A DNA stretch of 64,000 nt, from assembly GCA_020072815.1 (NCBI GenBank), contig JAIQGE010000005.1:248001-312000 (forward strand), written 5' to 3'. How positions within the stretch are numbered: position 1 is the first letter of the stretch; every line of letters starts with the position of its first letter. The translations under genes were made by a program, and so were the position numbers. Of the stretch, positions 2,837-35,825 are shown in pieces. The notes beneath the pieces were generated by a model, which had not been told where the DNA came from, searched no databases, and saw only the letters and a program-made list of their open reading frames with translations. This DNA is from Terriglobia bacterium. GTDB taxonomy: Bacteria > Acidobacteriota > Terriglobia > Terriglobales > Acidobacteriaceae.

Positions 2837-3151
2837 TCGCTCTCCGTCACTGTCTTAATCTTACAGCCTGCAACTTAAGATGAAAGCCTCAGGCCGGGAG
2901 TTTCCTCTTATTCCGGCGTATTTCGGCCAGTTTTGGGCCCGTTTACGATTCATTCGGACCGGCTTTGCTGCCATCTCCGTCCGCCGACGCCGCCACAGAC
3001 ACTAACGATCCACCCCAGGAAATACTGTCCACTAGGATACACAAAAGCGACTGGTGATCGGTGCACTTCGCTCCTGCATTTTTCTTTGTCTCTCCCAATC
3101 CCGGCGATTTTGGCAATCATGGCAATTTTGGCAATCTTCTCCGATCCGTGT

Positions 3152-3242
3152 CATCAGCGTTCACCTGTCCCGGCGCTCGCCCCGGCTTGCCGTGGGTGCC
3201 GTGGATCAGCGGTAAGGTTTTTGCCCTTCCGATTCCGGCGAT
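3152..3242. repeat. Direct repeat copy 1 (91 bp, 171-bp offset)
   Basis: The segment beginning CATCAGCGTTCACCTGTCCC recurs 171 bases downstream at 3323-3413 with one internal mismatch (T/C in the AAGGT-TTT stretch). Both copies end in TTCCGATTCCGGCGAT. A looser relative of the tail occurs near 10780-10825. Confidence 0.9.
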
Positions 3243-3322
3243 ATCCCGCCGCCCCGTGGCTGGCCACGCCCGTGTGGCGCCGCCGCCCTCGGCGGTGAGG
3301 TTCTGTCTTTTCCGATCAGTGC

Positions 3323-3413
3323 CATCAGCGTTCACCTGTCCCGGCGCTCGCCCCGGCTTGCCGTGGGTGCCGTGGATCAGCGGTAAGGTCTTTGCCCTTC
3401 CGATTCCGGCGAT
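3323..3413. repeat. Direct repeat copy 2 (91 bp)
   Basis: Second copy of the 3152-3242 repeat. It is followed by further short units of the form GATTCCGGCGAT/GATGTCGGCGAT up to about 3441, as if it seeded a small expansion. Confidence 0.9.
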
Positions 3414-4013
3414 GTCGCGCGATGTCGGCGATTCCGGCGATCTATGAACTCTCTCGTTAACAACTAAATCGTCATCCCACCCCCACCCCTCCCCATACTC
3501 GTTTGTTGCAAACAAAGACAGTTCCGTCATTCGACCCAACGGTCACCCAAGTGTTAACTAACTGATAAATTCTCCTCTTAACCAACTGATTCTTTGCGTA
3601 CTTAGCGTCCTTTGCGGTAAACCTTCGGGTTTATGGTTTCTGCCCTTGGCTGATGGTTGACTCACCACCTGGGACTATCAATCGCTCACCGCCAGTAGCA
3701 CTTTAGATAAAACTACTATTATATAATTTGTTCGCCTATGAATCAATGGCGAAATAGGACGATGTACCGTTTTCGAGTCACCGAAACTCGTCTGGCGCAG
3801 CTCCCTTTCGGGTCACCGAAACTCGTGGAGCGCAGCCGCCCTCGGCTGCGGCTTTTTGTTTCATTGACTGTAAACGGCCATCTTCGCGCCTCGGCTGTTC
3901 ACAGTGGAAGAGTGGCTCATCGTACCCGCGGGACGAACACCAGTCCCGCCAGGACGCCCGATAGTCTAGAGAATCGACGAGAGAACAGCGATCAAAGGCG
4001 ACGCGGTGTGCCA

Positions 4014-7155: not shown

Positions 7156-7210
7156 ACCCCTGCCGTCCGTGCTCCTCTGTGCCCTCCGTGGTTATCTCTC
7201 CCGACGCATG

Positions 7211-7224
7211 TGCAACCCTTTGCA
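7211..7224. promoter_or_regulatory. EPS-regulon palindrome, site 1
   Basis: TGCAACCCTTTGCA lies 115 bases before the start of the secreted propeller gene. It matches the 14-bp pattern TGCAA-N4-TTGCA found in other gaps of the exosortase/EPS region. Confidence 0.5.
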
Positions 7225-7338
7225 CACCGCAAAACTTTTTCAGCGCGTTCCAACAACCTGACAGCATCCCAAGCTATGATGAATCCACGCCGCTCGGGTT
7301 TTGACGGATCTTTCACGTCCAGTTGGAGTACTCACAGC

Positions 7339-9165
7339 ATGTTGCGTTCGCGGAGCTTGAGTTTTGTCTCAGCCGTCGTCCTCTCACTCAGTTGTATTTC
7401 GCTCGGTCTCGCTCCGCAGCTTCTCGCCCAAGCCACATGGAGCCCCATCGTCACTGTGGGTCCGGGCTACGTGGACAGCTCCACCCGCCAGGTCGTCCGC
7501 ACGGCGGGCGACGTAGTCTACGTGGTCACCAACGCCAGCGGATTTGATGGTGGCACGGCGCTGTCGTCCGTCCGCGTATATAAAGGTTCGCCCGCGGGCG
7601 TGTCGACGAGCTTCACCGAGATGGACGCGGCGCATCGTCCCAACAACGGAACCAGAATCGGCGGGGTGGAAGCCAAGCTTGTCGGCGCTGACCACTTCAT
7701 ACAGATCGTTTATGAAGACATCAGCGCGTCGCAGACCAAGTACGTGAAGTTTGATACCACCACGGACCTGTGGGGGACTCCGGAAGTTGTGGGCCCGCTG
7801 AACGGGCAGAACACGCTGAATCGCTACCACGAAAAGACCGGGCTGGCGCTGGACGCCGCCGGCCTGCCGCACGTGATCACCGGCGGCACCAATGAAGCCG
7901 TGTATTACACCAACCGGACGAGCGGCGCGTGGTCAGCGCCGCTGGTGGTGGGCGGCAGCAGCGCGTGGGAGCATCCTTCCATGGCGTTCGACACCGCGGG
8001 CGTGCTGCATGTCGCGTTCTATGACTTTGCCTCCAGCATGTTCTACCGCAACCGCTCGGCCGCCGGAACGTGGAGCGCCACGGAGACGATCACCGCCACC
8101 GCTTCCAACAGCCAGTCGGACGAATCGCCTTCGCTGGCGATAGATTCCACGGGAAGGATTGTGGTCGCGTACATCAACGGCGATTTCACCTTCCACTATC
8201 AACTGGCGCGACGCACCGCGGCCAACACTTGGACCGACATCAGTCCCACGGCGGCGGTGGCCGGGCACTCTCCCGGCGTTTACATTGACGTGGCCGACAA
8301 TCTTTACGCCATGGAAGGCCACGACCTCACGGCCATTCAACCTTCCGTGGAGATACGGTCCGCCGCGGGCGCGTGGGGCGCGTACTCCATTCTGGCCACC
8401 AGTCCGCCCACGCGCGATGGCAGCGCGTCCGTCCGCTGGGACATGTTGTGGCCGGGAAACACCGCGCATGTGGATTGGGTGAACATGGATGAATCCGGCG
8501 TGGATGCGTCCGGCAACCACTACGGCGTGACTTATTACTTGCACGGCGCGGTGAGCGGAACTGCGCCTCCGCCGCCAACGCCAACTCCAACGCCTACACC
8601 CACTCCCACGCCGACACCGACTCCGCCTCCGGGTTCGACGTTTGCTTTGACTCTGCTCTCGGGTTCCGTCTCCATCACCGCGGGACAGGGCGCGAACATG
8701 ACGCTGACCATCGGCGCCAGCGGAGGCTTCAATCAGACGGTCGCGCTGAGTTGTACCGGCGCGCCCGCCGGAGCCACGTGCGGAGTCTCGCCGGCTTCGG
8801 TGAACCCCAACGGCGGCAGCGCCACAGCGCAGGTTTCGATTACGTCTACGGCACGCACCGCGTCGGTTTGGCTGCCGCCGGCTCCGCGGAACTTGTGGCC
8901 GACGGTCGTCGTTGTGCTGGCCGGCATTGGCTTGCTGGGTCTGGGCTTTGCGTTGAAGTTCACGCGGATTCGCCGGCCGCGACTCGCGCTGGCTTCTCTC
9001 GGGCTGGCTGCTTTGTGCCTGATGCTGGGTTGTGGAGGCGGCAGCAGCAATACGGTTACGTCGGGCGGCGGAGGCGGCACACCTCCCGGGACGTTCAGCC
9101 TGATCGTTACTGGCACTTCAGGAACGCAAAGCAAGTCCACCACGCTGACGTTGGTCGTAAAGTGA
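7339..9165 (+). CDS. Secreted beta-propeller protein with Ig-like, membrane-hairpin C-terminus
   Basis: A 608-residue exported protein. The ATG at 7339 gives a standard signal peptide (cleavage near QLLAQA); upstream in-frame ATGs would place junk before it. Residues about 30-405 are repeated propeller blades with motifs such as LALDAAGLPHVITGG and MAFDTAGVLHVAFYD, related to the propeller at 47065-48243. A Pro-Thr linker (about 408-432) follows. An Ig-like domain (about 435-510) is then interrupted by two membrane helices (about 518-540 and 549-565) around a basic loop (KFTRIRRPR). The second helix ends GCGGGSSN, and the last strands (GTFSLIVTGTSG to LTLVVK) follow it. The same C-terminal plan occurs in the beta-helix protein at 33737-35773. 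Enzymatic activity is not evident. Confidence 0.75.
   Translation: MLRSRSLSFVSAVVLSLSCISLGLAPQLLAQATWSPIVTVGPGYVDSSTRQVVRTAGDVVYVVTNASGFDGGTALSSVRVYKGSPAGVSTSFTEMDAAHRPNNGTRIGGVEAKLVGADHFIQIVYEDISASQTKYVKFDTTTDLWGTPEVVGPLNGQNTLNRYHEKTGLALDAAGLPHVITGGTNEAVYYTNRTSGAWSAPLVVGGSSAWEHPSMAFDTAGVLHVAFYDFASSMFYRNRSAAGTWSATETITATASNSQSDESPSLAIDSTGRIVVAYINGDFTFHYQLARRTAANTWTDISPTAAVAGHSPGVYIDVADNLYAMEGHDLTAIQPSVEIRSAAGAWGAYSILATSPPTRDGSASVRWDMLWPGNTAHVDWVNMDESGVDASGNHYGVTYYLHGAVSGTAPPPPTPTPTPTPTPTPTPTPPPGSTFALTLLSGSVSITAGQGANMTLTIGASGGFNQTVALSCTGAPAGATCGVSPASVNPNGGSATAQVSITSTARTASVWLPPAPRNLWPTVVVVLAGIGLLGLGFALKFTRIRRPRLALASLGLAALCLMLGCGGGSSNTVTSGGGGGTPPGTFSLIVTGTSGTQSKSTTLTLVVK
8564..8630 (+). repeat. 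Pro-Thr codon repeat (linker)
   Basis: In-frame alternation of CCN-ACN codons encodes the PTPTPT linker between propeller and Ig-like domain. Such tracts are prone to length variation. Confidence 0.85.
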
Positions 9166-9295: not shown

Positions 9296-9309
9296 TGCAA
9301 AACCTTGCA
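9296..9309. promoter_or_regulatory. EPS-regulon palindrome, site 2
   Basis: TGCAAAACCTTGCA lies 151 bases before the 59-residue exosortase partner gene. Its right half (TTGCAT, 9305-9310) could serve as a -35 for a TATTAA at 9330-9335, though the 19-base spacing is long. Confidence 0.55.
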
Positions 9310-9460
9310 TCATCGGGACCTGGAACCTTTATTAATCACTAAACCAATGCCGCGTTTAACAGACTGAAAAGGCTGCATTAAGTTGCAATTGTCACAGCCG
9401 TGCGGTGACTCCGGGGTTTGGATGCTCAATTGCCCCTAGTTCTAGCTCAGGAGCACCACC

Positions 9461-9640
9461 ATGAAAAGGTTTGGATTCCTCTTGCTACTGGCATTTATGG
9501 TTTGCCTGGCTACGCCCAGGGTGTGGGCGGACGACGATAGTCATCACAGAACCAATGCTCTGGAAATGGGCGCGATAGGGCTGGTTGCCGCCTCGGTGAC
9601 GGGCGCGGGCGTGTACCTGCTGCGTCGTCGTCGCCAGTAA
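9461..9640 (+). CDS. Small TM-motif-TM protein, putative dedicated exosortase substrate
   Basis: A 59-residue protein. It has a signal-peptide-like helix (MKRFGFLLLLAFMVCLA), a short polar stretch (DDDSHHRTNALEMG, about 24-37), a second hydrophobic helix (about 38-54) and a terminal RRRRQ cluster. A motif, a transmembrane helix and a basic tail are the tripartite plan of exosortase sorting signals. CAGGAG eight bases upstream is a good ribosome site. It precedes the exosortase gene by only 30 bases on the same strand. The layout resembles the small TM-motif-TM proteins described next to exosortase J in Acidobacteriota; that match is from memory. The mature chain between cleavage points would be tiny, so it may be a regulatory or adaptor peptide rather than a surface protein. 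Confidence 0.7.
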   Translation: MKRFGFLLLLAFMVCLATPRVWADDDSHHRTNALEMGAIGLVAASVTGAGVYLLRRRRQ

Positions 9641-9670
9641 TTTGCCTGGGCTGAGAACAAGAACGCTCTG

Positions 9671-10708
9671 ATGCATCCGTACTCTCCACCCTCGGGGCCG
9701 GGAGCTCCACGGGACTCGAGGGAGCGCCCGGCTGCTTCGCTCGTGGCGCGGCTCCGGGCCGAGCCGTTTCTGCTCGCGATGGCCCTTACCCTGGCTGCGC
9801 TGAGCATCGCTTACCTGATTGTCCCCGGATTGAGCAACCTAACGCCTCTGCTGGCCTGCGCATTTCTGCTGACGCTTCTTGTCCAGCGGCTGCGCAGTGC
9901 TCCTATCCCAGAGCCCGTAGGTGTTGCACCCGTCGAAGACGCGCCTGCTCTTCTGCCGGCTTCCATCATCAGCCGCTGGCGGGTTTTTCTTTTCTTGTTT
10001 CTCGAAGCCGCCGTCTTCCTGGGGATATGGTTCCTGCCCAGCTCGTCTGCCGCACATGAGCCGGGATTTGTTTCTGCCGCGGCCCGCTATGCCGTCCTGC
10101 TGCCTCCGCTGGTCTTGCTGCCGTGGCCTGCATGGTTGCGCTCGGTGCGCGCGTATCGCGCTGAATGTCTGGCGGCGTTGCTGGCGTTGCTCACGTTCTT
10201 CCCGCATCGCGCCTTCATGGCCGCATGGCCGCAGTATTCCCAGGCGCTGGGACACGCGGTGTATTTTCTCTCGCGCCCGTTCGTCGCCTTCCTGCAATAC
10301 GTGCCGGGCGCAACGCCCACTCTGGCTGGCCCCAGCCTGGACGTAACGATTCTATTCGGCTGCAGCGGCCTGCAAGCCATCAAGCTGTTTCAGATCCTGT
10401 TTGCGCTGGTGCTGATCGTGGACTGGACAAGGCTCAACCGCCGCCGTGCTCTCGTTGGCTACGCGGCGGGTTGGGCGATCGCGCTCTCTGCGAACTTGGT
10501 CCGGATCGTGCTGCTGGTGGTCCTCGGCAACCGGCTCTCGCCTGATCTGGTCATCCGTCTTCACTTCGGCGCCGGATGGGTGTTCTTCGCCGCGGTCTTC
10601 TCTGCTTGTCTGTGGCTGTCTTATGACTGGCTGTGCGGACGCGGCAGCCCACTCAGCGCGTCCCAAGAACACAGCCGCTTGCAGGTCGCACCTGGCGCGG
10701 TCGAGTAG
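9671..10708 (+). CDS. Exosortase/archaeosortase family transpeptidase (XrtJ-like?)
   Basis: A 345-residue integral membrane protein with about eight hydrophobic segments. The exosortase triad is complete: Cys231 in FGCSGLQA, Arg278 in ANLVRIVLL and His298 in LHFGAGWVFF. Exosortases cleave and transfer proteins bearing a C-terminal motif-TM-basic signal on the outer face of the cytoplasmic membrane. The N-terminus before the first helix is Pro/Arg-rich. The gene stands directly behind a 59-residue candidate substrate and is not next to the XrtA-type EPS operon at 47-64 kb, so it is probably a separate class. Subtype J is suggested only by the neighbour. No other protein in the window shows a PEP-CTERM-like tail. 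Confidence 0.88.
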   Translation: MHPYSPPSGPGAPRDSRERPAASLVARLRAEPFLLAMALTLAALSIAYLIVPGLSNLTPLLACAFLLTLLVQRLRSAPIPEPVGVAPVEDAPALLPASIISRWRVFLFLFLEAAVFLGIWFLPSSSAAHEPGFVSAAARYAVLLPPLVLLPWPAWLRSVRAYRAECLAALLALLTFFPHRAFMAAWPQYSQALGHAVYFLSRPFVAFLQYVPGATPTLAGPSLDVTILFGCSGLQAIKLFQILFALVLIVDWTRLNRRRALVGYAAGWAIALSANLVRIVLLVVLGNRLSPDLVIRLHFGAGWVFFAAVFSACLWLSYDWLCGRGSPLSASQEHSRLQVAPGAVE

Positions 10709-13519: not shown

Positions 13520-14896
13520 TCAGCAGCGGACGATGTTCTCCGCCTCAATTCCTTTCGTCGCGTTGCGCGTGTCCACCACCAGGCTGGCTTCGCGGACGAT
13601 CTTCGCGTAGTCGTAGTCCGAGTGGTCGGTCACGATCAGCACCGCGGCATACTGCGCCAGGTTATCGAGCGGCGTGTTGTGCATCTGCAGATCGTATTTG
13701 CGGCCGCGTCCCACATATTCGAAGTAAGGATCGTTGTAGAAAACTTCCGCACCTTCTTTTTGCAGCAGCTCAATCACGGTGAGCGAAGGTGATTCGCGCA
13801 GATCGTCAATGTCTTTTTTATATGACACGCCCAGCACCAGCACCTTGGAGCCGTTGAGCGTCTTCTTCTGCTTGTTCAGGGCTTCCAGCGTGGTGCTCAC
13901 CACGTGGTAGGGCATACTCAGGTTGATTTCGCCCGCCAGTTCGATGAAGCGCGTGCGGAAGTCGTACTCCTTGGCTTTCCATGAGAGATAGAACGGGTCG
14001 AGCGGAATGCAGTGCCCGCCGATGCCCGGCCCGGGATAGAACGGCTGGAAGCCGAACGGCTTGGTGGAAGCCGCGGCGATCACGTCCCAGATGTTGATGT
14101 CCATGCGCATGCACAGCAGCTTGAGTTCGTTCACCAGCGCAATGTTCACGCAGCGATAGATGTTTTCCAGCAGCTTGGTCATCTCCGCCACTGCCGGTTT
14201 GGACACCGGCACGGTCTTGTTGAAGATAGTCCCGTACACGCCGCACGCAATCTCCGTGGCTGTGGCGCCGAACCCGCCCACAACCTTCGGAATATCGCGG
14301 CGCGCTACCGTGTCGTTGCCCGGATCTTCGCGCTCCGGCGAGAACGCCACATAGAATTCTTTGTCGGACGCATGGCCGTTGCGGCAAGCCTTCAGGCCGC
14401 TGGGATTCTTCTCCAGGATCGGGATCAGCAGTTCTTCCGTCGTCCCGGGATACGTGGTGCTTTCCAGGATGATCATCTGCCCGGCATGGATATAAGGAGC
14501 AATGTTCTCCGCCGTTTTGATGATGTAGCTCAGGTCCGGCTCATGATGGTCATTGAGCGGCGTGGGCACGGCGATGATGACAACGTCCATCTGCGCGATG
14601 CCGGCGAAATCGGCCGTAGCTTTGTAACCGTTGGCTTGCGCGGCCTGGATCTCCGTGGCCGGAATGCGGACGATGTAGCTTCCGCCGCTGTTCAGGGTCT
14701 TGACCTTTTCCTGGTCCACGTCAAACCCGGTGATGGCGAACTTCTGCTCGCTGAACAACAACGCCAGCGGCAGACCCACGTAGCCCTGTCCAATGATCCC
14801 GATCTTCGCGCTGCGGTTTTCGACTTTGCTCTTAAGCAGCGCCGCACTGCCTTGAAACGACGTGCCCTGTAACGATGAATGAGTAGTAGTAGTCAT
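13520..14896 (-). CDS. UDP-N-acetylglucosamine 6-dehydrogenase-type nucleotide-sugar dehydrogenase (WbpA-like)
   Basis: A 458-residue member of the UDP-glucose/GDP-mannose dehydrogenase family. The NAD site is GQGYVG at residues 36-41 and the catalytic cysteine is Cys296 in GIGGHCIPLD. The PFYPGPGIGGHCIPLDP signature and the AFSPERE block are typical of the WbpA/WecC branch, which oxidises UDP-HexNAc to the uronic acid, rather than of Ugd. A separate Ugd lies at 22668. It is divergent from the aminotransferase at 15304, which could act on its product after an NAD-dependent 3-oxidation (WbpB-type, not present here). The exact substrate is inferred. Confidence 0.88.
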   Translation of the reverse strand: MTTTTHSSLQGTSFQGSAALLKSKVENRSAKIGIIGQGYVGLPLALLFSEQKFAITGFDVDQEKVKTLNSGGSYIVRIPATEIQAAQANGYKATADFAGIAQMDVVIIAVPTPLNDHHEPDLSYIIKTAENIAPYIHAGQMIILESTTYPGTTEELLIPILEKNPSGLKACRNGHASDKEFYVAFSPEREDPGNDTVARRDIPKVVGGFGATATEIACGVYGTIFNKTVPVSKPAVAEMTKLLENIYRCVNIALVNELKLLCMRMDINIWDVIAAASTKPFGFQPFYPGPGIGGHCIPLDPFYLSWKAKEYDFRTRFIELAGEINLSMPYHVVSTTLEALNKQKKTLNGSKVLVLGVSYKKDIDDLRESPSLTVIELLQKEGAEVFYNDPYFEYVGRGRKYDLQMHNTPLDNLAQYAAVLIVTDHSDYDYAKIVREASLVVDTRNATKGIEAENIVRC

Positions 14897-15303
14897 AGCA
14901 GCCTTTAGGAGTGCATTTTAGGTGCCAGCGCCGGGGGCCTCAAAGATGCGCAGATAACCATCCTGAAGCCCAGTGCTTTCAATAGTATACAGCTTGCCAT
15001 CACGAGGCATCTGGGCCAGCGACATACGGCCCTCAAGTGGCCACAGCGTCGCGATGTGCAACTGTTTGCGGCTTTGGGGACCATCTGGCCCTCCTCGCAT
15101 CCCCGTGAGTTCCTGCGACTTCCCCGCATAGTGAAAGTGTTTTCACCTATCGTCATGCGGCGCCTTGCCCCAACTTGCCGTATCGCTTGAAACCACAGCA
15201 CTTAGCTCAGTTCCGGACATCGGCCCCCAATGATGTTTGGAGAGCAGAATGCTTATCAGAGAGGTGGATACAAAACTAATCGAGGGGAAGGTTCTCATAA
15301 ATC
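14897..15303. other. Divergent intergenic region between dehydrogenase and aminotransferase
   Basis: Control region for two EPS precursor genes. It contains an EPS palindrome at 15057-15070 and a GTGAAAGTGTTTTCACC near-palindrome at about 15131. No gene is credible in it. Confidence 0.6.
15057..15070. promoter_or_regulatory. EPS-regulon palindrome, site 3
   Basis: TGCAACTGTTTGCG deviates from the consensus only in the last base. It lies 160 bases before the dehydrogenase and 233 bases before the aminotransferase, in a divergent gap. Confidence 0.4.
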
Positions 15304-16434
15304 ATGGCTACGGCAGCAGTTGCTCAGATGACAGTGCCCATCCTGGACCTGAAGGCGCAATACGCCACCATTAAGGATGAAATCCAGGCTGCGATCAACA
15401 GCGTCCTTGAAAACCAGCATTTCATCCTGGGCCCGGAAGTAAAGGCCCTGGAAAAAGAGATTGCCGAGTATTGCGGCGCCAAGTATGCCGTGGGTGTGGC
15501 CTCAGGGACTGACGCCCTCATCCTCGGTCTGCGCGCTTGCGGCGTGGGCCCCGGCGATGAAGTCATTGTTCCATCGTTTACTTTCATCGCCACCGCCGAT
15601 GCAGTCAGCCTGCTGGGCGGCGAGCCGGTCTTTGCCGATATTGATCCCGACACCTACAATCTTGATCCCAAGGCCGTGGAGCGGCGCATCACCCGCAGGA
15701 CCAAAGCCATTGTCCCCGTCCATCTTTACGGCCAGTCGGCGGACATGGACCCCATCCTGGACCTAGCCAAAGCCCATCACCTGAAAGTGGTGGAAGATAC
15801 CGCGCAGGCCATCGGCGCCACCTATAAAGGACGCAAGACCGCCTCCATGGGCGACGTAGGCTGCATCAGCTTCTTCCCCAGCAAGAACCTGGGTGGTTAC
15901 GGCGACGGCGGCATGGTCGTCACCAACTCTGAGGAAGTTGCCCGGCATCTGGCTTCGCTGCGCGCGCACGGCAGCACCAAAAAATATCTCAGTGACGAAC
16001 AGGGTTGGAACAGCCGTCTGGACGAACTGCAAGCCGCCATTCTGCGCGTGAAACTCCGCCATCTTGACCAGTGGAGCATTCAGCGCCGCGAAGCCGCCCG
16101 CCGCTATGACGCGCTGCTGCAAGGGCTGCCCAGTGTCGTCACGCCCAAGCGCAACGGCTTCGGCGACCACGTTTTCCATCAGTACACCGTGCAGGTTCCG
16201 CAGCGTGACCAGATGCAGAAACGCCTGGCGGAAGCCGGCGTCACTACCATGGTCTATTACCCGCATGCAATTCACCTGCAGCCGATCTACGCGTCCCTGG
16301 GCTATCGCGAAGGCGACCTTCCGGTGACCGAAGCGGTCTGCAAAAAGGTATTTTCGCTGCCCATGTTCCCTGAACTCACGCCGGAGCAGAGCGAATACGT
16401 GAGCAACGCCTTGGCGCGCGCGCTTGAAGGATAA
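15304..16434 (+). CDS. DegT/DnrJ/EryC1/StrS sugar aminotransferase (WbpE-like)
   Basis: A 376-residue PLP-dependent aminotransferase of nucleotide sugars. The PLP lysine is Lys194 in FFPSKNLGGYGDGG. SGTDALILGLRACGVGPGDE and PVHLYGQSADMDPI are typical family blocks. It probably aminates a keto-sugar nucleotide made from the WbpA-like product, giving a 3-amino uronic acid, as in the Wbp pathway of Pseudomonas. An oxidase and an acetyltransferase for that route are missing here, so the substrate remains inferred. The start at 15304 lacks a close ribosome site, and ATG 15328 is an alternative. The stop is just before the sugar transferase on the same strand. Confidence 0.9.
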   Translation: MATAAVAQMTVPILDLKAQYATIKDEIQAAINSVLENQHFILGPEVKALEKEIAEYCGAKYAVGVASGTDALILGLRACGVGPGDEVIVPSFTFIATADAVSLLGGEPVFADIDPDTYNLDPKAVERRITRRTKAIVPVHLYGQSADMDPILDLAKAHHLKVVEDTAQAIGATYKGRKTASMGDVGCISFFPSKNLGGYGDGGMVVTNSEEVARHLASLRAHGSTKKYLSDEQGWNSRLDELQAAILRVKLRHLDQWSIQRREAARRYDALLQGLPSVVTPKRNGFGDHVFHQYTVQVPQRDQMQKRLAEAGVTTMVYYPHAIHLQPIYASLGYREGDLPVTEAVCKKVFSLPMFPELTPEQSEYVSNALARALEG

Positions 16435-16456
16435 ACGACAAGAGACGAGAAACTCT

Positions 16457-17962
16457 GTGGCTGAAACTGGACTCAACCTGGGCGGTGAAATGAATCAAGG
16501 AACAACTGCGGCTCCGTACGTGCGGGAAAAATTCAAGTTGCTCAACCGCAGCTACGGCAGCACCCTGGTGCGCATCGGCGCGCATCACGTGCCGCGGCGC
16601 AGCCTGATCCTGGCGGCCAGTGAAAGTTTCCTGATCATGTTCGCCCTGGCCGCAGCCACCGCCTTGCGGTTCGTCAACCTGCGCACCGCTCTCGAGTACC
16701 TTTCCCAGCCGGAGAACTGGCTGCGCTTTGCCCTGGTCACCGTGGTCTGCCAGCTCTCGCTCTACTACAACGACCTCTATGAGACCCGCGCGGTCAGCAC
16801 GCGCGGCCTGCGGCTGGTGCGGGCCTTTGCCGCCATGGGCATCGCGCTCCTGGTGCTGTCATTCCTCTATTACCTGATTCCCGCCGTCCGGCTGGAGCGC
16901 GGAATCGCCATGCTGGCTGCGGCCGTCGCACTGCCGTTGCTGGTGGTTTGGCGACTGAGCCTGGACAAGAGCAAGGTCTTCACCCGTCCGCTGGAACGCA
17001 TCCTGGTCCTGGGCACGGGACGCAGCGGAATCAATCTGGCCGCTGAGATCCTGCGCCGTCCCGAGTTGCAATACAAAGTTGTGGGGTTTCTCGACGAGCG
17101 CGCCACCGGCGAAAGCCGGATCTTTGTCACCCCGGGCATTCTCGGCACGGTGAATGACGTGGAAGAAGTTGTTGCCCGCGAAGACGTGGACCGCGTCGTC
17201 ATCTCGCTGGGCGAGCGCCGCGGCGTCATGCCCTTCCGCCAACTGGCCACGCTCAAGCTGCAAGGCCTGCCCATTGAAGATTGCCTGTCGCTTTACGAGC
17301 GTCTCACCGGACGCATCTCGCTGGAGCAGCTCCAACCCAGCTGGCTGATCATGGGCGATGGCTTCCGCAAGTCGCGCATAGTCCGCGCCGCCAAACGCAT
17401 CTCCGACATTGTGGTTTCGTTGCTGGCCATTTTGCTGACGTTTCCCCTCATGGTAGCCGTGGCGCTGGCCATCGCCATCGAAGACGGCTGGCCGGTAGTC
17501 TTCAAGCAGGACCGCGTGGGCCTGGGCGGACACAGCTTCAAAGTCTTCAAGTTCCGCTCCATGCGCAAAGGCTCGGAGAAAGCCGCGCCCAGTTGGACCG
17601 CCGACGGCGATCCCCGCATCACCCGCGTGGGCAATTTCATCCGCAAGTTCCGCCTGGACGAACTGCCGCAGCTCTTCAACATCCTGCGCGGCGAAATGAG
17701 CGTGGTCGGCCCGCGTCCGGAGGTCCCGTTTTTCTGCGAACTGCTGGAGCGCGAGATCCCGTTCTTCAACCAGCGCCACAGCGTGCGTCCCGGACTCACC
17801 GGCTGGGCCCAGGTGAAGTACCAGTATGGCGCCAGCCTGGAACAGGCCAAGACCAAGTTCGAATATGACCTCTTCTACATCAAGCACCTGTCGTTCATGT
17901 TCGACCTCACCATCATCCTGGAGACGGTGAAAGTGGTGCTGACCGGCAAAGGCGGGAAGTAG
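16457..17962 (+). CDS. EPS-initiating polyprenyl glycosylphosphotransferase (EpsB/WcaJ-like)
   Basis: About 500 residues. It has four N-terminal membrane helices, a central nucleotide-binding fold (ILVLGTGRSGINLAAEIL), and a C-terminal bacterial sugar transferase domain after a fifth helix (KRISDIVVSLLAILLTFPLM). The catalytic block has FKVFKFRSM, DPRITRVGNFIRK, LDELPQLFNILRGE and SVVGPRPE. It transfers a sugar phosphate to undecaprenyl phosphate to start the repeat unit, in the cytoplasmic membrane. It matches the XrtA-associated EpsB-type architecture. GTG at 16457 has GAGACGAG upstream; ATG 16490 or a TTG at 16424 overlapping the previous gene are alternatives. It is coupled to the aminotransferase. 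Confidence 0.92.
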   Translation: MAETGLNLGGEMNQGTTAAPYVREKFKLLNRSYGSTLVRIGAHHVPRRSLILAASESFLIMFALAAATALRFVNLRTALEYLSQPENWLRFALVTVVCQLSLYYNDLYETRAVSTRGLRLVRAFAAMGIALLVLSFLYYLIPAVRLERGIAMLAAAVALPLLVVWRLSLDKSKVFTRPLERILVLGTGRSGINLAAEILRRPELQYKVVGFLDERATGESRIFVTPGILGTVNDVEEVVAREDVDRVVISLGERRGVMPFRQLATLKLQGLPIEDCLSLYERLTGRISLEQLQPSWLIMGDGFRKSRIVRAAKRISDIVVSLLAILLTFPLMVAVALAIAIEDGWPVVFKQDRVGLGGHSFKVFKFRSMRKGSEKAAPSWTADGDPRITRVGNFIRKFRLDELPQLFNILRGEMSVVGPRPEVPFFCELLEREIPFFNQRHSVRPGLTGWAQVKYQYGASLEQAKTKFEYDLFYIKHLSFMFDLTIILETVKVVLTGKGGK

Positions 17963-17968
17963 GAACCC

Positions 17969-18781
17969 TTATTGCTGCCTGGGTGGTTTTGCCCTCACTT
18001 TTGGCGTGCCTTCGTCGCTCGATCCCTTTTCCCTCAGGTTTGCATCCCACTTGCCGCCGCAGATTTGATCGACAGCATAAGAATAGTTTGTGAAGCATTT
18101 CTGTCTATGTCTGAATGGCACAAGGCTAAAGGGCAGGAGGTCTCCCTTCACATCGGCACGCAGCACAACAATGGCCTTTTCCCGACGCCTAAAAAAATAG
18201 GTACTGGAGGCGGTGGTTTTCGCTCCTGGTGGGAAATGGTCAATCAAATCATCGCGAATAGAGTTGTCGTCCCCCGTATCAAACGGAGCAATTCTGGCAT
18301 CTTTTGGCGGCAGGTCGTTACACTTTCCGTCCCAAAGTCTGTTGCCCCCAATTGCCAAGACTGCAGGATTAAAAAAAGTGGGGCTGGACGCGCTGTCTTC
18401 CGGTAGGTTCTCCTCTTCTAAGTCAACTATCCAGCCGTTGACTCTGACGTCATTAATGTCGAAAGGAACTTGACCTTCGTTCGTGATTTTAATTTCAAAC
18501 CTTACTTGGCAAACATTCGAGTTCGGAATACTTGCCCAATGGAGCTCCGTGTCAACAGGAGACTTAGCCTCAAGGCCGGGCCGCACAGTCTGTTGGAAAA
18601 CGCTCCACGCCCATATGCCCGCAATCGCTAGCGCAAAGATTTGAGCCAGTTTGTTTATCGTGTCCACCTTGTCCTTAAACCCATTGGGCTCTGACGGAGT
18701 TTGAGGAGTATTAGGCATCGAAGTAGCCTGTTCTGACGCCGGTGACATTTTCTGATTTGTCGGCGGTTGTGTCGCACTCAT
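17969..18781 (-). CDS. Hypothetical single-pass membrane protein
   Basis: A 270-residue protein with a Pro/Ser/Thr-rich cytoplasmic tail (1-35), one membrane helix (about residues 47-65, AQIFALAIAGIWAWSVFQQ) and an external domain. The external domain contains VCQVRFEIKITNEGQVPFDI, an immunoglobulin-like strand pattern, plus four to five cysteines. No family is recognised. Codon use is less GC-rich than the EPS genes around it, and it sits convergent to the glycosylphosphotransferase with a six-base gap. It looks like an insertion into the EPS region rather than a pathway member. Confidence 0.6.
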   Translation of the reverse strand: MSATQPPTNQKMSPASEQATSMPNTPQTPSEPNGFKDKVDTINKLAQIFALAIAGIWAWSVFQQTVRPGLEAKSPVDTELHWASIPNSNVCQVRFEIKITNEGQVPFDINDVRVNGWIVDLEEENLPEDSASSPTFFNPAVLAIGGNRLWDGKCNDLPPKDARIAPFDTGDDNSIRDDLIDHFPPGAKTTASSTYFFRRREKAIVVLRADVKGDLLPFSLVPFRHRQKCFTNYSYAVDQICGGKWDANLREKGSSDEGTPKVRAKPPRQQ

Positions 18782-19056
18782 TGTGGTTCCTTGGAGCTTT
18801 TAAGAAAGACGAAGAACTATATCCTCCAAGAAAGCTCTAATCAACAGTGAAAGTTTCTTTGCGAAGGTGCTGCTCGACTGCCCGCTTATCGCGCACATAA
18901 CCGCGAATGCCCGCCGGCTACTGAAACAAAAGGATAATCTGGAGTACAAGCGCGGATGAACGAGGATCAAACGAAAATCTGTGCGTAGAGACGTAGCACC
19001 GCTACGTCTCAAACTCCAGGAATACGTTGCGCATAAGGGGAAGGCATGCCCGTCTA

Positions 19057-19173
19057 GTCCCCGCAGGGGACGGTTGGTAGGGCAGGCTTTTAAGCCTGCC
19101 TGAGCCGAAGGCGAAACGAGCCGTTTCAACGGCGGGAAAGCTGGGAGAAATAAGGCGAGTCCCCGCAGGGGAC
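19057..19173. repeat. Intergenic hairpin repeat block, copy at 19 kb
   Basis: GTCCCCGCAGGGGAC occurs at 19057-19071 and again at 19159-19173. Between them lies GCAGGCTTTTAAGCCTGC and GCCGTTTCAACGGCGGGAAAGCT (19120-19142). The latter, and the TTGGTAG following the first hairpin, are shared with 4014-4067. Confidence 0.75.
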
Positions 19174-19193
19174 GGCTGAGTCTGATCAAGAAC

Positions 19194-19217
19194 AGGGGCC
19201 GCCTCTCCGCGGCCCCT
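19194..19217 (-). terminator. Hairpin downstream of alpha/beta hydrolase
   Basis: AGGGGCCGC and GCGGCCCCT form a perfect 9-bp GC-rich stem with a six-base loop, 28 bases past the stop. On the minus strand it is followed by GTTCTTG, a weak T-tract. Confidence 0.5.
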
Positions 19218-19244
19218 CTCGTTCATTAATTCTCAGTTACCCGC

Positions 19245-20102
19245 TTACGCCACCTGTCCCTTGCTGGCTTTTTGCCCGATGAACTCCAGCAACGCGGCGT
19301 TCACTTCATCCGCATGGGTCCACGTCAGGCCGTGCGGGCCGCCTTCGATCACCACCAGCTTGCTGCCTTTCACCAGTTCGGCGGTGCGTTTGCCCGTGGC
19401 CGCGAGCGGCAGAATCCGGTCTGAGTCGCCGTGAATGACCAGCGTTGGAATCTCGATGCGCTTGAGATCGTTGCGGAAGTCGGTCAGCCACGCGGAAACG
19501 CATTCCAGGGTGCCGATAGGGGAAGCGCCGGCGGCGACGTTCCAACTCATCTGCACCACCTGGTCGCTGATGCGCTTGCCGCCCAACACGTCCACGTTGT
19601 AGAAGTTTGCCAGGAACTGAGAGAGGAACGCCGGACGGTCGGCGATGATCCCTTTCCTGATTCCCTCGAACACGCTGCCGTCCACGCCTTCAGGGTTGTC
19701 CGGCGTCTTGAGCAGGAATGGCGGAATGGACGCGATGAAAACCGCTTTGCTTACGCGCACGCTTCCGTAATTGCCGAGAAAGCGCGCCACTTCGCCGCCG
19801 CCCATGGAAAAGCCGACCAGCGTTACGTCATGCAGGTTGATCTTGTCCAGCAGCTTGTCCAGGTCCTCGGCGAAAGTGTCATAGTCGTAGCCCGAAGCCG
19901 GCCTGCTCGAGTAGCCGAATCCCCGGCGGTCATAGGCGATCACCCGATAACCCGCATCCAGCAGCGCCGCTGTCTGCTTTTCCCAGGAGCGTCCGCTCAG
20001 CGGCCAGCCGTGAACCAGCACCACCGGCTTACCTTTGCCCTGGTCCTCATAGTAGATATCAATGGTGCCCGAGTTTTCTTTGCCGACTTCAATATATGGC
20101 AT
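19245..20102 (-). CDS. Alpha/beta hydrolase, non-heme chloroperoxidase/arylesterase-like
   Basis: A 285-residue cytoplasmic alpha/beta-hydrolase. The nucleophile is Ser99 in VGFSMGGGE, the oxyanion motif is HGWPLSGRSW, the acid is Asp226 or Asp228 in HGDSDRILP, and the base is His257 in GGPHGLTW. The GFSMGG elbow and DRRGFGYSSRP block are typical of cofactor-free haloperoxidase-like esterases. The physiological substrate is unknown. It is monocistronic, has its own terminator and has no EPS palindrome upstream, which supports its independence from the surrounding EPS genes. Confidence 0.88.
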   Translation of the reverse strand: MPYIEVGKENSGTIDIYYEDQGKGKPVVLVHGWPLSGRSWEKQTAALLDAGYRVIAYDRRGFGYSSRPASGYDYDTFAEDLDKLLDKINLHDVTLVGFSMGGGEVARFLGNYGSVRVSKAVFIASIPPFLLKTPDNPEGVDGSVFEGIRKGIIADRPAFLSQFLANFYNVDVLGGKRISDQVVQMSWNVAAGASPIGTLECVSAWLTDFRNDLKRIEIPTLVIHGDSDRILPLAATGKRTAELVKGSKLVVIEGGPHGLTWTHADEVNAALLEFIGQKASKGQVA

Positions 20103-20466
20103 GGAATTTCCTTCCTTTCTTGTGTGCGTTGCAGTTGAAGGTTGCCGGTTGGATTCTGGGCTGCGTGTTTCCGCTCGCCCGGGCGAAGGCGCGCGATGTC
20201 TGCGATTGAAAAACGGTTTGAGTTTCTGCGTTGGTTCGAGTGAGTGCCCGGCGTGTCAGCGCCATTTACATCAGAATAGGAGTACCCGTGTATGATATGC
20301 GCCCGGACGGGCGGCGGGGACGGAATTATTCGGGCATTGTCCTTTTTCGCGACGTTCGCCGGATGGACGCCGGAACGTTCCCGCTGTGGCGATCACTCCA
20401 CGCGCATTCGCGCGCGACTGGGTCCTGATTGTCTGCTGCAAACCGAGTGTCTAGGTCGTTCGATCG
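20103..20466. other. Intergenic, no feature recognised
   Basis: The gap lies between the hydrolase start and the BY-kinase end. It probably contains the hydrolase promoter, but no clear -35/-10 was found. Confidence 0.4.
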
Positions 20467-21432
20467 CTAGATCGGCGTTTCCACCGTGTCCTTGGCCCCG
20501 TATCCCTCGCCATAGCCATAGCCGTAACGGTTGTATCGCTTGTTGCTGGGGTCGGTGGAGCAGTTCAGCACCACGCCCACCAATTTCTGCGGGTCCAGCT
20601 GCGGACGTATCTTGGCCAGGGCCTCGCGGTTGCTCTTGCGCGAGCGGACCACCAGCAGCACGCTTTCGCACGGCGCGGAGATCACTTCGAAATCGGTCAG
20701 GCCCAGCACCGGCGGCGCATCAATAATGACCAAGCGGAAAGACTCAGCGCACCAGCCCACGAATTCCTTCCAGCGGTCCTGGGAGAACAACTCCGGCGCC
20801 GGCGTGACCGCCGTGCCGGCGGGCAAGAAGAACAGGTTCGGCGAATCTGTGGCCAGGATCGCCGAGGAGTTCGCAATTCCATGCTCCAGTATCTTGGCCA
20901 GGCCCGGCGATGCGGGGTCCCCCAGCAAGCGCGAGAGTCCGCGGGTGCGCAGATCAGTATCTACGAGCAGGACCGGCCAGTTCTGTATGTTGGCATAGCA
21001 CAGCGCCAGATTCAGCGACGTGAGCGTCTTGCCTTCGCCTTGTTCGGCGCTGCTGATCACCATGGAGCGCGTTCCCAGCTCGGTTTGCCGCTTCACCAGG
21101 CGCGTGCGCAGCATGCGGTAGCCTTCCACCGCCAGTTGCATGGCGGGATTGTATTGCGCCGCCAGGAATGATTTCTCATTGTCGCGACGCAAGGAAATCT
21201 TCCGGCAGTTTTCCAGCCGGCCCGCAGCCACCTGCGAGACAATTTCATCCGAAAGCGGCAGCGTGCCGAACAGCGGCTCCACATCTTTGCCGTTCGCCGG
21301 GCCCGCGCCGTTGGTAACGTGAATGCCTTTCTTGATCGCGTCCACAGCGTCCTGGACGTCTACTGCGGTATAGGCTGGCGTGCTGCTTCCCACGTTGGCA
21401 GGTTTGCGAGTTTCGTTGAAAAATCTGCTCAT
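20467..21432 (-). CDS. Bacterial tyrosine kinase (CpsD/EpsG-like BY-kinase)
   Basis: A 321-residue autokinase of the polysaccharide co-polymerase system. Walker A is AEQGEGKT (129-136), Walker A' is VLLVDTDLR (154-162) and Walker B is LVIIDAP (234-240). The C-terminus carries a tyrosine cluster, Tyr300, 303, 305, 307 and 311, the usual autophosphorylation tail. It lacks the membrane chain-length domain, so it should partner with a separate Wzz-type protein, such as the one at the right edge. It follows the ExeA-like ATPase by 54 bases, a pairing seen in XrtA-type EPS loci. Confidence 0.9.
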   Translation of the reverse strand: MSRFFNETRKPANVGSSTPAYTAVDVQDAVDAIKKGIHVTNGAGPANGKDVEPLFGTLPLSDEIVSQVAAGRLENCRKISLRRDNEKSFLAAQYNPAMQLAVEGYRMLRTRLVKRQTELGTRSMVISSAEQGEGKTLTSLNLALCYANIQNWPVLLVDTDLRTRGLSRLLGDPASPGLAKILEHGIANSSAILATDSPNLFFLPAGTAVTPAPELFSQDRWKEFVGWCAESFRLVIIDAPPVLGLTDFEVISAPCESVLLVVRSRKSNREALAKIRPQLDPQKLVGVVLNCSTDPSNKRYNRYGYGYGEGYGAKDTVETPI

Positions 21433-21486
21433 AATCTCTTCGTTCTTCGCTCTTTCTGGCCCACAACAAGGTCCAGGCCCCGGTTC

Positions 21487-22380
21487 TTATTTGGCCGTCG
21501 CTGCGGAAGGTTCCGGCGCCGCGCGTGGCGGAGTTTCAGGAACTTCCAGCAGGTCATCGGTAAGGGTGAGATCATCCACCGCTTCCATGACCAGATCAGG
21601 CGTAATCCTGCGCTCTTGCCGGCGGAACCCGGCCGCCAGCGCACGGTCGCACAGCAGGTTGATCAGGCGCGGCGTGCCCCGGGCCCGCCGATAGATGTCT
21701 TCCAGCGCCGGCGGAGTGAACGGGTTCTCTTTGGAAAGTCCGGCCACGTGCAGGCGTTCCGCGATATAGGCACGTGTCTCCGGCAGCGTCAGCGTGCGCA
21801 GCTTGGAGACCACGGCCACGCGTCCGCGCAGCGCCGCGAATTGCGGTTTCATCAGCAGCGGCACCAGCTCCGGCTGCCCGCAGAGGATCACTTGCAGGAC
21901 CGGCACAGGATAGTTGTCGGTGTTCAGCAGCAACCGCACCTCTTCCAACAGTTCCGGCGAGAGTAGATGGGCTTCATCAATGATGATCAGCACCACACCG
22001 CTTTGGCGCTGGCAGGAGAGCAACAGCTCATGTAAGGCCCGCAGTCGCGCCGGCTTGGTTGCCGAAGCAGCGCTGATCTCCAGTTCGTCCAGCAGTGATT
22101 CCAAAAGCTCGTCCGGGCTAAGAGTCGGGTTCACCACGAACGCCGAACGGATCGGCACCTTGGACGACGATTCATGCATGAGAATGTGCTGCAGGCAGTA
22201 GAGCAACGTCGTCTTGCCGGTGCCGATGGGACCCACGGAAACCTGGAGGCCTTTGCGCAGCGAAACACCTTCCAGCAGGGCCCGCAACGTGTTGCGATGG
22301 GGCTCTGCCAGATGAAGAAACCGGGGATCGGGAGTAAGCCGAAACGGTTCCTGCGTTAAACCATAAAAGGCTGAATACAT
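21487..22380 (-). CDS. ExeA-like AAA ATPase of XrtA-type EPS systems
   Basis: A 297-residue AAA ATPase beginning MYSAFYGLTQEPFRLTPDPR, the signature start of the XrtA-system/ExeA ATPases. Walker A is GPIGTGKTT from residue 50 and Walker B is LIIIDEAH. The sensor region includes VILCGQPELVPLL. Unlike ExeA it has no peptidoglycan-binding tail; it ends in a Pro/Ala-rich stretch. Its role in EPS secretion is not settled, but it is consistently found beside the BY-kinase. It is the first gene of a two-gene unit, with an EPS palindrome 170 bases upstream. Confidence 0.88.
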   Translation of the reverse strand: MYSAFYGLTQEPFRLTPDPRFLHLAEPHRNTLRALLEGVSLRKGLQVSVGPIGTGKTTLLYCLQHILMHESSSKVPIRSAFVVNPTLSPDELLESLLDELEISAASATKPARLRALHELLLSCQRQSGVVLIIIDEAHLLSPELLEEVRLLLNTDNYPVPVLQVILCGQPELVPLLMKPQFAALRGRVAVVSKLRTLTLPETRAYIAERLHVAGLSKENPFTPPALEDIYRRARGTPRLINLLCDRALAAGFRRQERRITPDLVMEAVDDLTLTDDLLEVPETPPRAAPEPSAATAK

Positions 22381-22550
22381 TTCTTCTCTGCCTTGCTGTT
22401 ACCCGGCGCCACGGCATCTCCCTGCAGGGGGGCGGGGTAGAAGTTGCTTTCGTCAGGGTGAAAGTGCAACTTCCGGGCCAAACTGCTGGCTAGTAAGCAT
22501 GTTTAGAATCAAATAGATAGAGATAATCAAGGATAAGCGAGGTGCAGAAG

Positions 22551-22564
22551 TGCAAACCTCTGCA
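22551..22564. promoter_or_regulatory. EPS-regulon palindrome, site 4
   Basis: TGCAAACCTCTGCA lies 170 bases upstream of the ATPase/BY-kinase unit and downstream of the Ugd stop. Confidence 0.5.
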
Positions 22565-22667
22565 CATTTGATTACTTTCCCTTCAATGCCCTCAAGCTGG
22601 TAGACGTTCCTCGCGGTAGCGATGAATACGCGCTCGTCTAAGCTGCCAGATGCGGCAGTCCGCAGTT

Positions 22668-24062
22668 TTAGCTGACCTTCGCCATCTGTTTCAGCGTAGA
22701 TGGCCTTCTTCCCACGCTCACGTACAACAGCCCGTGGGCCTCCATTTCCTCCAGGGAGTAGAGGTTGCGGCCATCCAGAACAATGGGATAGGTCAATTGC
22801 TGGCGAATACGCTTCAAATCCAGGGCAGAGAACTCGTCCCAATCGGTGAGGATCAACAGGGCGTCGGCGCCCGCGGCGGCCTGGTAAGGCCCTTCGGCAA
22901 AGGTGATCCGGTCCTGGAAGACTTCTTTCGAGCGTGGCATGGCCGCCGGATCGTAGGCGGTAATGCGTGCTCCTTCGGCCAGCAGATCTTCCACCAGCGC
23001 GATGGCTGGAGACTCGCGAATATCGTCAGTGCGGCCCTTGAAGGCCAGACCCAGCACCGCCAGCTTCTTGCCCTTGAGCGTCCACAGGGCCGTGCGGATT
23101 TTCTTCATGAAGCGGTGCCGCTGGTCTTCGTTGATCTGCATGACTTCATTCAGAAGCCCGAAGTCATATCCGCATTCCCGGGCCACAGCGCAGAAAGCGG
23201 CTACATCTTTGGGGAAGCAAGACCCGCCGTAGCCGATGCCGGCGCGCAGAAAGCGCGGTCCGATGCGGGAATCGCTGCCCACGCCCAGCGCCACCTGTTC
23301 AATGTCGGCGTCAACCTCTTCGCAGATATTGGCCACTGCATTGATAAACGAGATCTTCATCGCCAGGAATGCATTGGAAGCATGTTTAATCAGCTCCGCG
23401 CTCTTGGCCGTGGTCACAATGATGGGCGGCGGAATGGTGACTCCGTCCGGCTCCGGTATTTTGTTCAGCGATTCGTAGTAACGGCCGCTGGTCAGCGGCG
23501 AATAGACGTCACACAGAATGGCGGCTGCACGCGGAGTGTCTGCGCCCACCACAATGCGGTCGGGGTACAGGAAATCGGTCACCGCCGTGCCTTCCCGCAG
23601 GAATTCCGGGTTGGACACCACGTCAAACTCGCATTCTGCTCCGGTGGTCAACTGCATCACCCGCCGGATCCAATCACTGGTATAAACAGGGACAGTGCTT
23701 TTTTCGATGATGACTTTATATCCATCAATATTGTGGGCGATTTCCCGCGCCACCGACTCCACGTAAGAAAGGTCAGCCTCGCCGTTGTCTTTGGGCGGCG
23801 TTCCCACAGCGATAAAAATGACCGAACATGACTTGATTGCTTCCGCCAACGAACTGGAAAACTTCAGGCCAACGTTGCGGTGGCGTTCCAGTAACTCGGG
23901 CAGGAACTGCTCATGAATCGGGACTTCCCCGCGGTTCAGCGCAGCCACTCTTTCCAGGTCGTTGTCCACGCAGACCACTTGATAACCGAGCTCGGCGAAG
24001 CACGCTGCCGCTACCAACCCGACGTAGCCGGAACCAACAACTGCAATTCTGTTCACTTTCAT
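22668..24062 (-). CDS. ugd: UDP-glucose 6-dehydrogenase
   Basis: A 464-residue NAD-dependent dehydrogenase converting UDP-glucose to UDP-glucuronate. The NAD site is GSGYVGL (10-16) and the catalytic Cys282 lies in GIGYGGSCFPKD, the Ugd rather than the WbpA form. EKSTVPVYTSD and SNPEFLREGTA are classic. It feeds the UDP-glucuronate decarboxylase and the 4-epimerase encoded next door, so this part of the locus makes UDP-xylose and UDP-galacturonate. The ATG at 24062 is divergent from the decarboxylase gene across a gap carrying the EPS palindrome. Confidence 0.92.
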   Translation of the reverse strand: MKVNRIAVVGSGYVGLVAAACFAELGYQVVCVDNDLERVAALNRGEVPIHEQFLPELLERHRNVGLKFSSSLAEAIKSCSVIFIAVGTPPKDNGEADLSYVESVAREIAHNIDGYKVIIEKSTVPVYTSDWIRRVMQLTTGAECEFDVVSNPEFLREGTAVTDFLYPDRIVVGADTPRAAAILCDVYSPLTSGRYYESLNKIPEPDGVTIPPPIIVTTAKSAELIKHASNAFLAMKISFINAVANICEEVDADIEQVALGVGSDSRIGPRFLRAGIGYGGSCFPKDVAAFCAVARECGYDFGLLNEVMQINEDQRHRFMKKIRTALWTLKGKKLAVLGLAFKGRTDDIRESPAIALVEDLLAEGARITAYDPAAMPRSKEVFQDRITFAEGPYQAAAGADALLILTDWDEFSALDLKRIRQQLTYPIVLDGRNLYSLEEMEAHGLLYVSVGRRPSTLKQMAKVS

Positions 24063-24414
24063 CCTCCGTAGGCCCGTTTGCGATCCTGGTTCCTACTTCA
24101 AATCTTCTCTCCCGCTGAACGCAGGAGTCCGATTTAGGATATGCACGTTGACTACCAATATTGCCCTTGCTTAACTACTATAAATAAAAGGCTTAACCAT
24201 TGTAACTGTCTCCAAAGAACACAACAGTGAGGAAACCCGATACACATGTGCAAACGATTGCAGCAGATGTGCCAACGCCTGTCCCTGGGCTGGCCCTGCA
24301 ACTGCTAAAAATGATCAGAGGGCGGCGCGAGTCGCGATTTGGCTCGTGCAAGCAAGCCATCGTGTATTCTCGAATATGGCGCCGGAGGCGCACTGATTGG
24401 GGCTGACAGGAAAA
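24063..24414. other. Divergent control region of ugd and the decarboxylase
   Basis: About 350 bases containing EPS palindrome site 5. AT-rich sequence near 24170-24200 (ACTACTATAAATAAAAGG) could hold a promoter. No gene is present. Confidence 0.5.
24249..24262. promoter_or_regulatory. EPS-regulon palindrome, site 5
   Basis: TGCAAACGATTGCA, a near-perfect match to the consensus, lies 186 bases from ugd and 152 from the decarboxylase start. A partial copy (TGTGCCAACG) follows 20 bases on. Confidence 0.55.
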
Positions 24415-26448: not shown

Positions 26449-26972
26449 CGCGGAATCTCTCCAGCATGGTATCAGGAACCCTCGGAGGTGCCGGACTCAG
26501 GGTGTCGAGTGCGCTAACAACTCGCATTCGCGCTCCATCCCAATCACGCGACGCGAATTCGAATGAAAATCCCTGCGTTCGTGGCCGTAGGCGCCAGTCG
26601 TTCGCTGCCTTGGCTGGTTCAGCGTCTGGCAATTTGTTGGCAGGATATGAAAATCGCCCACTCGAATATGCAATCGCTTTCACCGTGGCTTTCAGGTACT
26701 GCAAGGCAGTGCTCCATAGCGTTGTGCAACAGCAGCCATTTCCATCTCCAAGTCGTTTATTGACAAAAAGATAGCAGCGTGCTGGTTGCCTGCCCAACCG
26801 GCGATTCCGTAGCCCGGCGTTCGGCATCTCGCTTGCACCTACAGCATCAACACAGCCCCAGGAAGTAGTGTGGGTTGGAGCGGTAGCCGGAGGATGGATC
26901 GCAAGCATGAAGACAACCCAGGTTTCGTATCGTGCCGGCCAGTTGAGGTCAACCCCGGAGGAGGAAAATAAA
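26449..26972. other. Divergent control region of epimerase and large secreted protein
   Basis: About 520 bases with a weak EPS palindrome (26669-26682). Several open frames cross it on both strands but are Arg/Ser-rich and lack ribosome sites, so no gene is called. Confidence 0.5.
26669..26682. promoter_or_regulatory. EPS-regulon palindrome, weak candidate
   Basis: TGCAATCGCTTTCA matches TGCAA-N4-TTGCA in nine of ten fixed positions. It lies in the divergent gap between the epimerase and the secreted deacetylase-like gene. Confidence 0.25.
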
Positions 26973-35773: not shown

Positions 35774-35825
35774 GGACAACTTCAACTCCAAAATGCATGC
35801 CGCTGTTGACTCGCGCAGAGGGTGA

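Follow-up and report, generated by a model that had tools for sequence, protein, structure and literature searches.

Exosortases are usually viewed as enzymes that sort many large surface proteins. The locus described here, in a stretch of 64,000 nucleotides of acidobacterial DNA (the window), raises the question of what an exosortase does when its apparent partner is a protein of 59 residues encoded just upstream. A sequence-only reading of the locus had proposed that such an enzyme would release or transfer nothing larger than a short peptide, had likened the pair to exosortase J systems and had tied it to the control of exopolysaccharide (EPS) production.

The small open reading frame extends from 9461 to 9640 on the forward strand, with AGGAG preceding its ATG, and ends 30 bases before the ATG of the exosortase gene at 9671. 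Its product, called here the AxEM protein or simply the partner, has the layout MKRFGFLLLLAFMVCLATPRVWA-DDDSHHRTNALEM-GAIGLVAASVTGAGVYLL-RRRRQ, in agreement with the signal helix, motif, helix and RRRRQ tail first read from the sequence. It is regarded as a putative exosortase target on the basis of its conserved pairing with the enzyme, its purifying selection and its presence as one copy per genome. The ortholog from G584, a second genome of the host genus, was 59% identical to it, and the two genes differed at 16, 14 and 30 first, second and third codon positions, respectively. In this comparison, dN was 0.27 and dS 1.69 for the partner (dN/dS ~0.16), and 0.42 and 2.04 for the exosortase (dN/dS ~0.21), ratios that are rough because dS is near saturation. 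As judged from these alignments, both genes of the pair are under purifying selection. A Shine-Dalgarno-like GGAG was also found ahead of the start codon in 6/6 partners. A chance reading frame was ruled out by the ortholog in G584, the codon-position pattern and dN/dS. It is very improbable that the small frame is spurious next to an ordinary exosortase, or that it is the remnant of a decaying PEP-CTERM system: its shortness and the lack of exosortase and targets in most close relatives could be read in that way, but both genes are under purifying selection, the start site and the ribosome-binding site are conserved, and the conservation spans two families, so that dN/dS and conservation refute this explanation.

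The signal peptide MKRFGFLLLLAFMVCLATPRVWA was predicted at 9461-9529 (+), with a V-W-A cleavage site according to the -3,-1 rule; signal peptides and cleavage sites were assigned by eye, and in the aligned relatives the predicted ends were SWA, AKA, LLA or AAA. The alignment of the partners places next the exposed segment DDDSHHRTNALEM at 9530-9568 (+), with A-x-E-M at its end (codons 9557-9568; A33, E35 and M36 invariant), followed at 9569-9637 (+) by a C-terminal transmembrane helix and the RRRRQ tail, in which G48, Y52 and R56-R58 are invariant. The part predicted to remain exposed after signal peptidase action is D24-M36, 13 residues, and amounts to ~13-25 residues in the relatives, which fits the peptide of about 10-20 residues anticipated by the sequence-only reading. 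All six aligned partners begin with M-K and a signal-peptide-like N-terminus and continue with a His-containing hydrophilic stretch that leads to A-x-E-M, after which come a hydrophobic helix, in which a Gly and a Tyr are conserved, and an Arg-Arg-Arg near the C-terminus. Together with the signal peptide, this is the general layout of an exosortase-target sorting signal (motif, helix and terminal basic cluster), with A-x-E-M in the position that PEP occupies in PEP-CTERM tails.

The exosortase, of 345 residues, is encoded at 9671-10708 (+). It scored above the cut-offs of the TIGR04178 superfamily signature (42.1 bits vs 23) and of PF09721 (30.0 bits vs 25.7), and the triad alignment located Cys231 (10361-10363, +), Arg278 (10502-10504, +) and His298 (10562-10564, +), confirming that a complete Cys/Arg/His exosortase is present. 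All seven exosortases of the set, made up of this one and the six relatives described below, reached the TIGR04178 cut-off, and the three residues were invariant in 7/7. No named NCBIfam exosortase model (XrtA, XrtE, XrtJ or others) was passed by the enzyme, which met the superfamily signature only and was the sole TIGR04178 match in the host genome (5.29 Mb). Its AlphaFold2 model (mean pLDDT 76, pTM 0.63) consisted almost entirely of helices, several of them long, and agrees with the multi-helix membrane protein predicted for an exosortase; a search of PDB folds with this model gave no match better than chance. In a maximum-likelihood tree that included the seven exosortases, XrtJ and EpsH-type exosortases from the same family and one XrtE, the seven plus the long-branched XrtE made up one side of a 100/99 branch, and when XrtE was left out the seven grouped at 91/97. 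On this phylogenetic evidence, the enzyme, a superfamily member by its signature, forms its own clade apart from XrtJ.

Six relatives were found: that of G584, 51% identical to the enzyme of the window, and five from one other Acidobacteriota family (G705, G800, G842, G695 and G869), which were detected when a profile built from two exosortases (window and G584) was searched against 399 genomes of the class. Besides the host, only G584 carries the exosortase among nine genomes of the host genus, and 89 genomes of the other family again yielded only the same five; the distribution is patchy. The pair is absent from most of the host's relatives and is therefore dispensable. In G584, the pair is found in the same order, with a lipo-invert gene upstream and genes for an NDP-sugar dehydrogenase and an aminotransferase downstream, whereas in G705, G800, G842 and G695 a protein of 64-72 residues is encoded immediately upstream of the exosortase. 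A partner of 59-72 residues is therefore found directly upstream of 6/7 exosortases in two families, and the concern that the small gene might not be conserved beside orthologous exosortases was not borne out. G869, a genome 65% complete, carries an exosortase of the same clade (L083/L094) with no recognisable partner found; its partner was either lost, has diverged or lies on a missing contig.

When a profile of the six partners was run over the seven genomes, one strong match was obtained in six of them (E 2.8e-27 to 3.3e-31), each adjoining the exosortase; the next-best match had an E of 8.5e-4, and those inspected were not C-terminal tags. The partner was likewise not found in seven genomes of the host genus without exosortase. 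Among open reading frames of at least 90 residues, the exosortase was the only one common to both groups of loci, and therefore the pair travels as a unit. The loci outside the host genus had no neighbours in common with the EPS stretch of the window except the pair, apart from one weak epimerase similarity. A tblastn search of plasmids gave no match, and a scan of contigs returned nothing with a single-protein query and only the G584 contig with an alignment of the pair. The term dedicated system has been applied to a sorting enzyme that has a single target in its genome, and in one-target genomes of rhombosortase the enzyme and target are usually adjacent (Haft and Varghese, PMC3237569). One enzyme and one target per genome, encoded by adjacent genes, were found here, with the exception of G869.

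The number of targets was followed in the host genome at two levels. When the reading frames of the 367-kb contig were scanned, no other A-x-E-M tail was detected, and a profile search of the host genome detected no second one. The sequence-only reading had named many genomic proteins with the motif as a finding that would speak against a private partner; no other tagged protein was found in the genomes that have the partner beside an orthologous exosortase. Weak profile matches elsewhere (L002, L065-L076 and L104-L118) were rejected, as those inspected were not C-terminal AxEM tails, and a 388-residue protein ending in NDEM-helix-RRR (L081, C19) was set aside as an ordinary membrane protein, since its match to the profile was at chance level (E 0.88) and the remaining motif was absent. 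No PEP-CTERM (TIGR02595) match over the cut-off was obtained in the host genome. Separately, a 256-residue protein of this genome (L002:1489-2259, C12) was seen to end in ENLPATGS-helix-SRK, an LPXTG-like tail in Acidobacteriota.

These searches bear on the proposal that the exosortase has a number of surface proteins as substrates, for example lipo-invert or divergent-motif membrane proteins, the 59-residue protein being just one of them. A surface protein with a 'lipo-invert' C-terminal anchoring domain (NF058595) is indeed encoded directly upstream of the pair, at 7210-9165 (+), and shares with it the synteny in G584 and a palindrome. However, the lipo-invert proteins are devoid of A-x-E-M and one of them is encoded away from the exosortase, which, along with the lack of another A-x-E-M tail by genome profile or contig scan, makes this proposal improbable. 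This second lipo-invert protein (NF058595) is found at 33740-35944, and the tails of both contain hydrophobic helices and a Cys-containing lipobox-like site close to the C-terminal end.

The most likely course of events is cleavage of the partner by the exosortase near A-x-E-M, with transfer or release of a peptide of ~13 residues. The partner would be exported by Sec and would then lose its signal peptide, after which the C-terminal helix and the Arg cluster would hold it in the inner membrane with only ~13 residues (DDDSHHRTNALEM) outside. At the surface of the membrane, A-x-E-M would be recognised by the exosortase, whose Cys231 would attack near this motif with the help of Arg278 and His298, as suggested by the conserved triad and the archaeosortase/exosortase mechanism. 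By analogy with archaeosortase A, Cys231 would be expected to form a thioester with the C terminus newly made on the exposed peptide, and an amine, a hydroxyl group or water would then resolve it. The short hydrophilic peptide, for which DDDSHHRTNALE is the candidate product, could in this manner be passed to an acceptor (a lipid amine or an EPS intermediate) or freed by water. To our knowledge, exosortase chemistry is unproven in bacteria.

The partner could also be a small membrane subunit, an inhibitor or a chaperone rather than a substrate, with A-x-E-M docking uncut and the true substrates being tagless. Adjacency and one-to-one pairing would fit a subunit equally well, but the partner shows the full tripartite layout of a sorting signal, with the motif directly before the helix, and the XrtJ partner, named as a target by NCBIfam, has the same layout; a non-substrate role is thus considered unlikely. 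If the partner is cut as proposed, a broader possibility, which we put forward only tentatively, is that a separate exosortase lineage has as its only task the production of a short peptide, in many cases rich in His (~13, up to ~25 residues), from a tiny membrane precursor, and that this peptide acts as a signal, primer or tag in EPS production that is under the same palindromic operator.

The palindrome concerned, TGCAAAACCTTGCA, is located at 9296-9309 and precedes the start of the partner by 165 bp, compared with 164 bp in G584. It is followed by a degenerate second copy, TGCATTAAGTTGCA, at 9374-9387 (+), and by a block near the start codon, CAATTGCCCCTA, at 9427-9438 (+), which is a possible promoter element; both are identical in G584. 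Control of the pair by sigma-54 was discarded, as no GG-N10-GC was seen by eye at the conserved TTGCA block. The pattern TGCAA-N4-TTGCA had three more exact copies in the window: at 7211-7224, at the start of the lipo-invert gene; at 24249-24262, between the genes for UDP-glucose 6-dehydrogenase (-) and a sugar epimerase/dehydratase (+); and at 43285-43298, upstream of a 1333-residue Ig-domain open reading frame (-) in the EPS stretch. A copy with one mismatch was found at 15057-15070, in the interval that separates the gene for the NDP-sugar dehydrogenase from that for the aminotransferase. The 12.5-kb contig of G584 contains three exact palindromes (L077:5325, 7611 and 11538), located before the lipo-invert gene, before the partner and in the same dehydrogenase-aminotransferase interval as the one-mismatch copy of the window, respectively.

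The four exact copies in the window compare with 0.15 expected, and 0/100 shuffles reached four; the rest of the 367-kb contig had no further exact copy. As the pattern was picked after viewing the 9296 site and its ortholog, the chance figure for the other three sites is the fairer one, and these are still far above expectation. The palindrome was not found at the loci outside the host genus. One copy was seen near an exosortase of another genus (L037:787). From the site statistics and the conserved position, we read the palindrome as a putative operator common to EPS, surface-protein and exosortase genes, through which the operon of the pair would be co-controlled with the EPS locus. The earlier link between palindrome and EPS control was thus supported, with copies confined to the EPS stretch of the contig and the orthologous position kept.

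The EPS genes at 13520-24062 code for the NDP-sugar dehydrogenase, the aminotransferase, a TIGR03013 glycosyltransferase, a tyrosine kinase, a TIGR03015-like ATPase and the UDP-glucose dehydrogenase. EPS genes of XrtA/PEP-CTERM type, with TIGR03013 and TIGR03108 over the cut-off, were observed at 15304-24062 and 45150-47027, although neither XrtA nor any PEP-CTERM protein over the cut-off is present in the host genome. Two other features of the window were recorded: a 1398-residue open reading frame with choice-of-anchor Z repeats (NF058597) at 26868-31064, within the EPS stretch, and an imperfect intergenic repeat at 3060-3540, with ~30-40 codons nearly duplicated in the reverse-strand frame 3117-3539.

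Among known systems, archaeosortase A with PGF-CTERM of Haloferax volcanii is a distant homolog that has the catalytic Cys in common with the exosortase and provides the chemistry model, but it differs in its large S-layer targets, its archaeal lipid and its motif. For this enzyme, catalysis by a Cys and the coupling of C-terminal cleavage to lipid attachment have been reported or modelled (PMC7157517).

The XrtA/PEP-CTERM/EpsH system (TIGR02602, TIGR03109, TIGR02595) resembles the pair in its C/R/H exosortase, its tripartite target and an EPS locus, of which TIGR03013 and TIGR03108 members are present near the pair. In contrast, XrtA has many targets and the window exosortase one, and the palindrome upstream of the pair is not a sigma-54 site. 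Membership was rejected: the enzyme scored 21.5 bits with TIGR02602 (cut-off 105.55) and gave no TIGR03109 match. XrtE/VPEID-CTERM (TIGR04162/TIGR04161) is the nearest branch of the tree, a placement that involves long branches. XrtE is a fusion with a CPBP intramembrane protease, whereas the 345-residue exosortase has no protease domain, and the best of its relatives reached only 39 bits with TIGR04162 (cut-off 150). An XrtE/CPBP-protease fusion was detected in another genome (G888, L088:868-2677; TIGR04162, 207.6 bits). Directly after it is encoded a 54-residue protein, MKKFLGFTMVLLSVCGSASAGSVNAPEISASTG...RSRRKQK, with APEI before the helix, a VPEID-like candidate target that falls below the TIGR04161 cut-off; this would be another dedicated pair.

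The likeness to XrtJ/PExPT-CTERM (TIGR04199/TIGR04200) is one of architecture. This system is also found in Acidobacteriota, and a protein of ~60 residues precedes the exosortase, with a signal peptide, a very short exposed segment, a motif, a helix and a basic tail. True XrtJ is present in several genomes of the host family (one example scored 632 bits with TIGR04199, cut-off 200), and most of the XrtJ genes checked there have a PExPT-type protein of 57-68 residues encoded 35-134 bp upstream, one of which was scored and passes TIGR04200. The resemblance to exosortase J that had been suggested therefore held for the architecture but not for membership, as the exosortase had no TIGR04199 match at E 1, the partner had no TIGR04200 match and the exosortase falls in a separate clade of the tree. 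XrtJ is also longer (~540-590 vs 345 residues), has C(N/D)G instead of CSG at the active site, and has PExPT instead of A-x-E-M as target motif. Judged from these sequence differences, the pair lies outside the XrtJ/PExPT-CTERM families and is likely to represent a dedicated exosortase-target cassette of its own, whose recognition motif is new.

A two-gene cassette with one target of 59 residues approaches a minimal system, with substrate and product small enough for direct mass spectrometry. With the present clade, XrtJ and the XrtE example of L088, the separate exosortase branches of Acidobacteriota that have tiny putative private targets number at least three; the peptide itself, rather than any large protein, may therefore be what matters in these systems.
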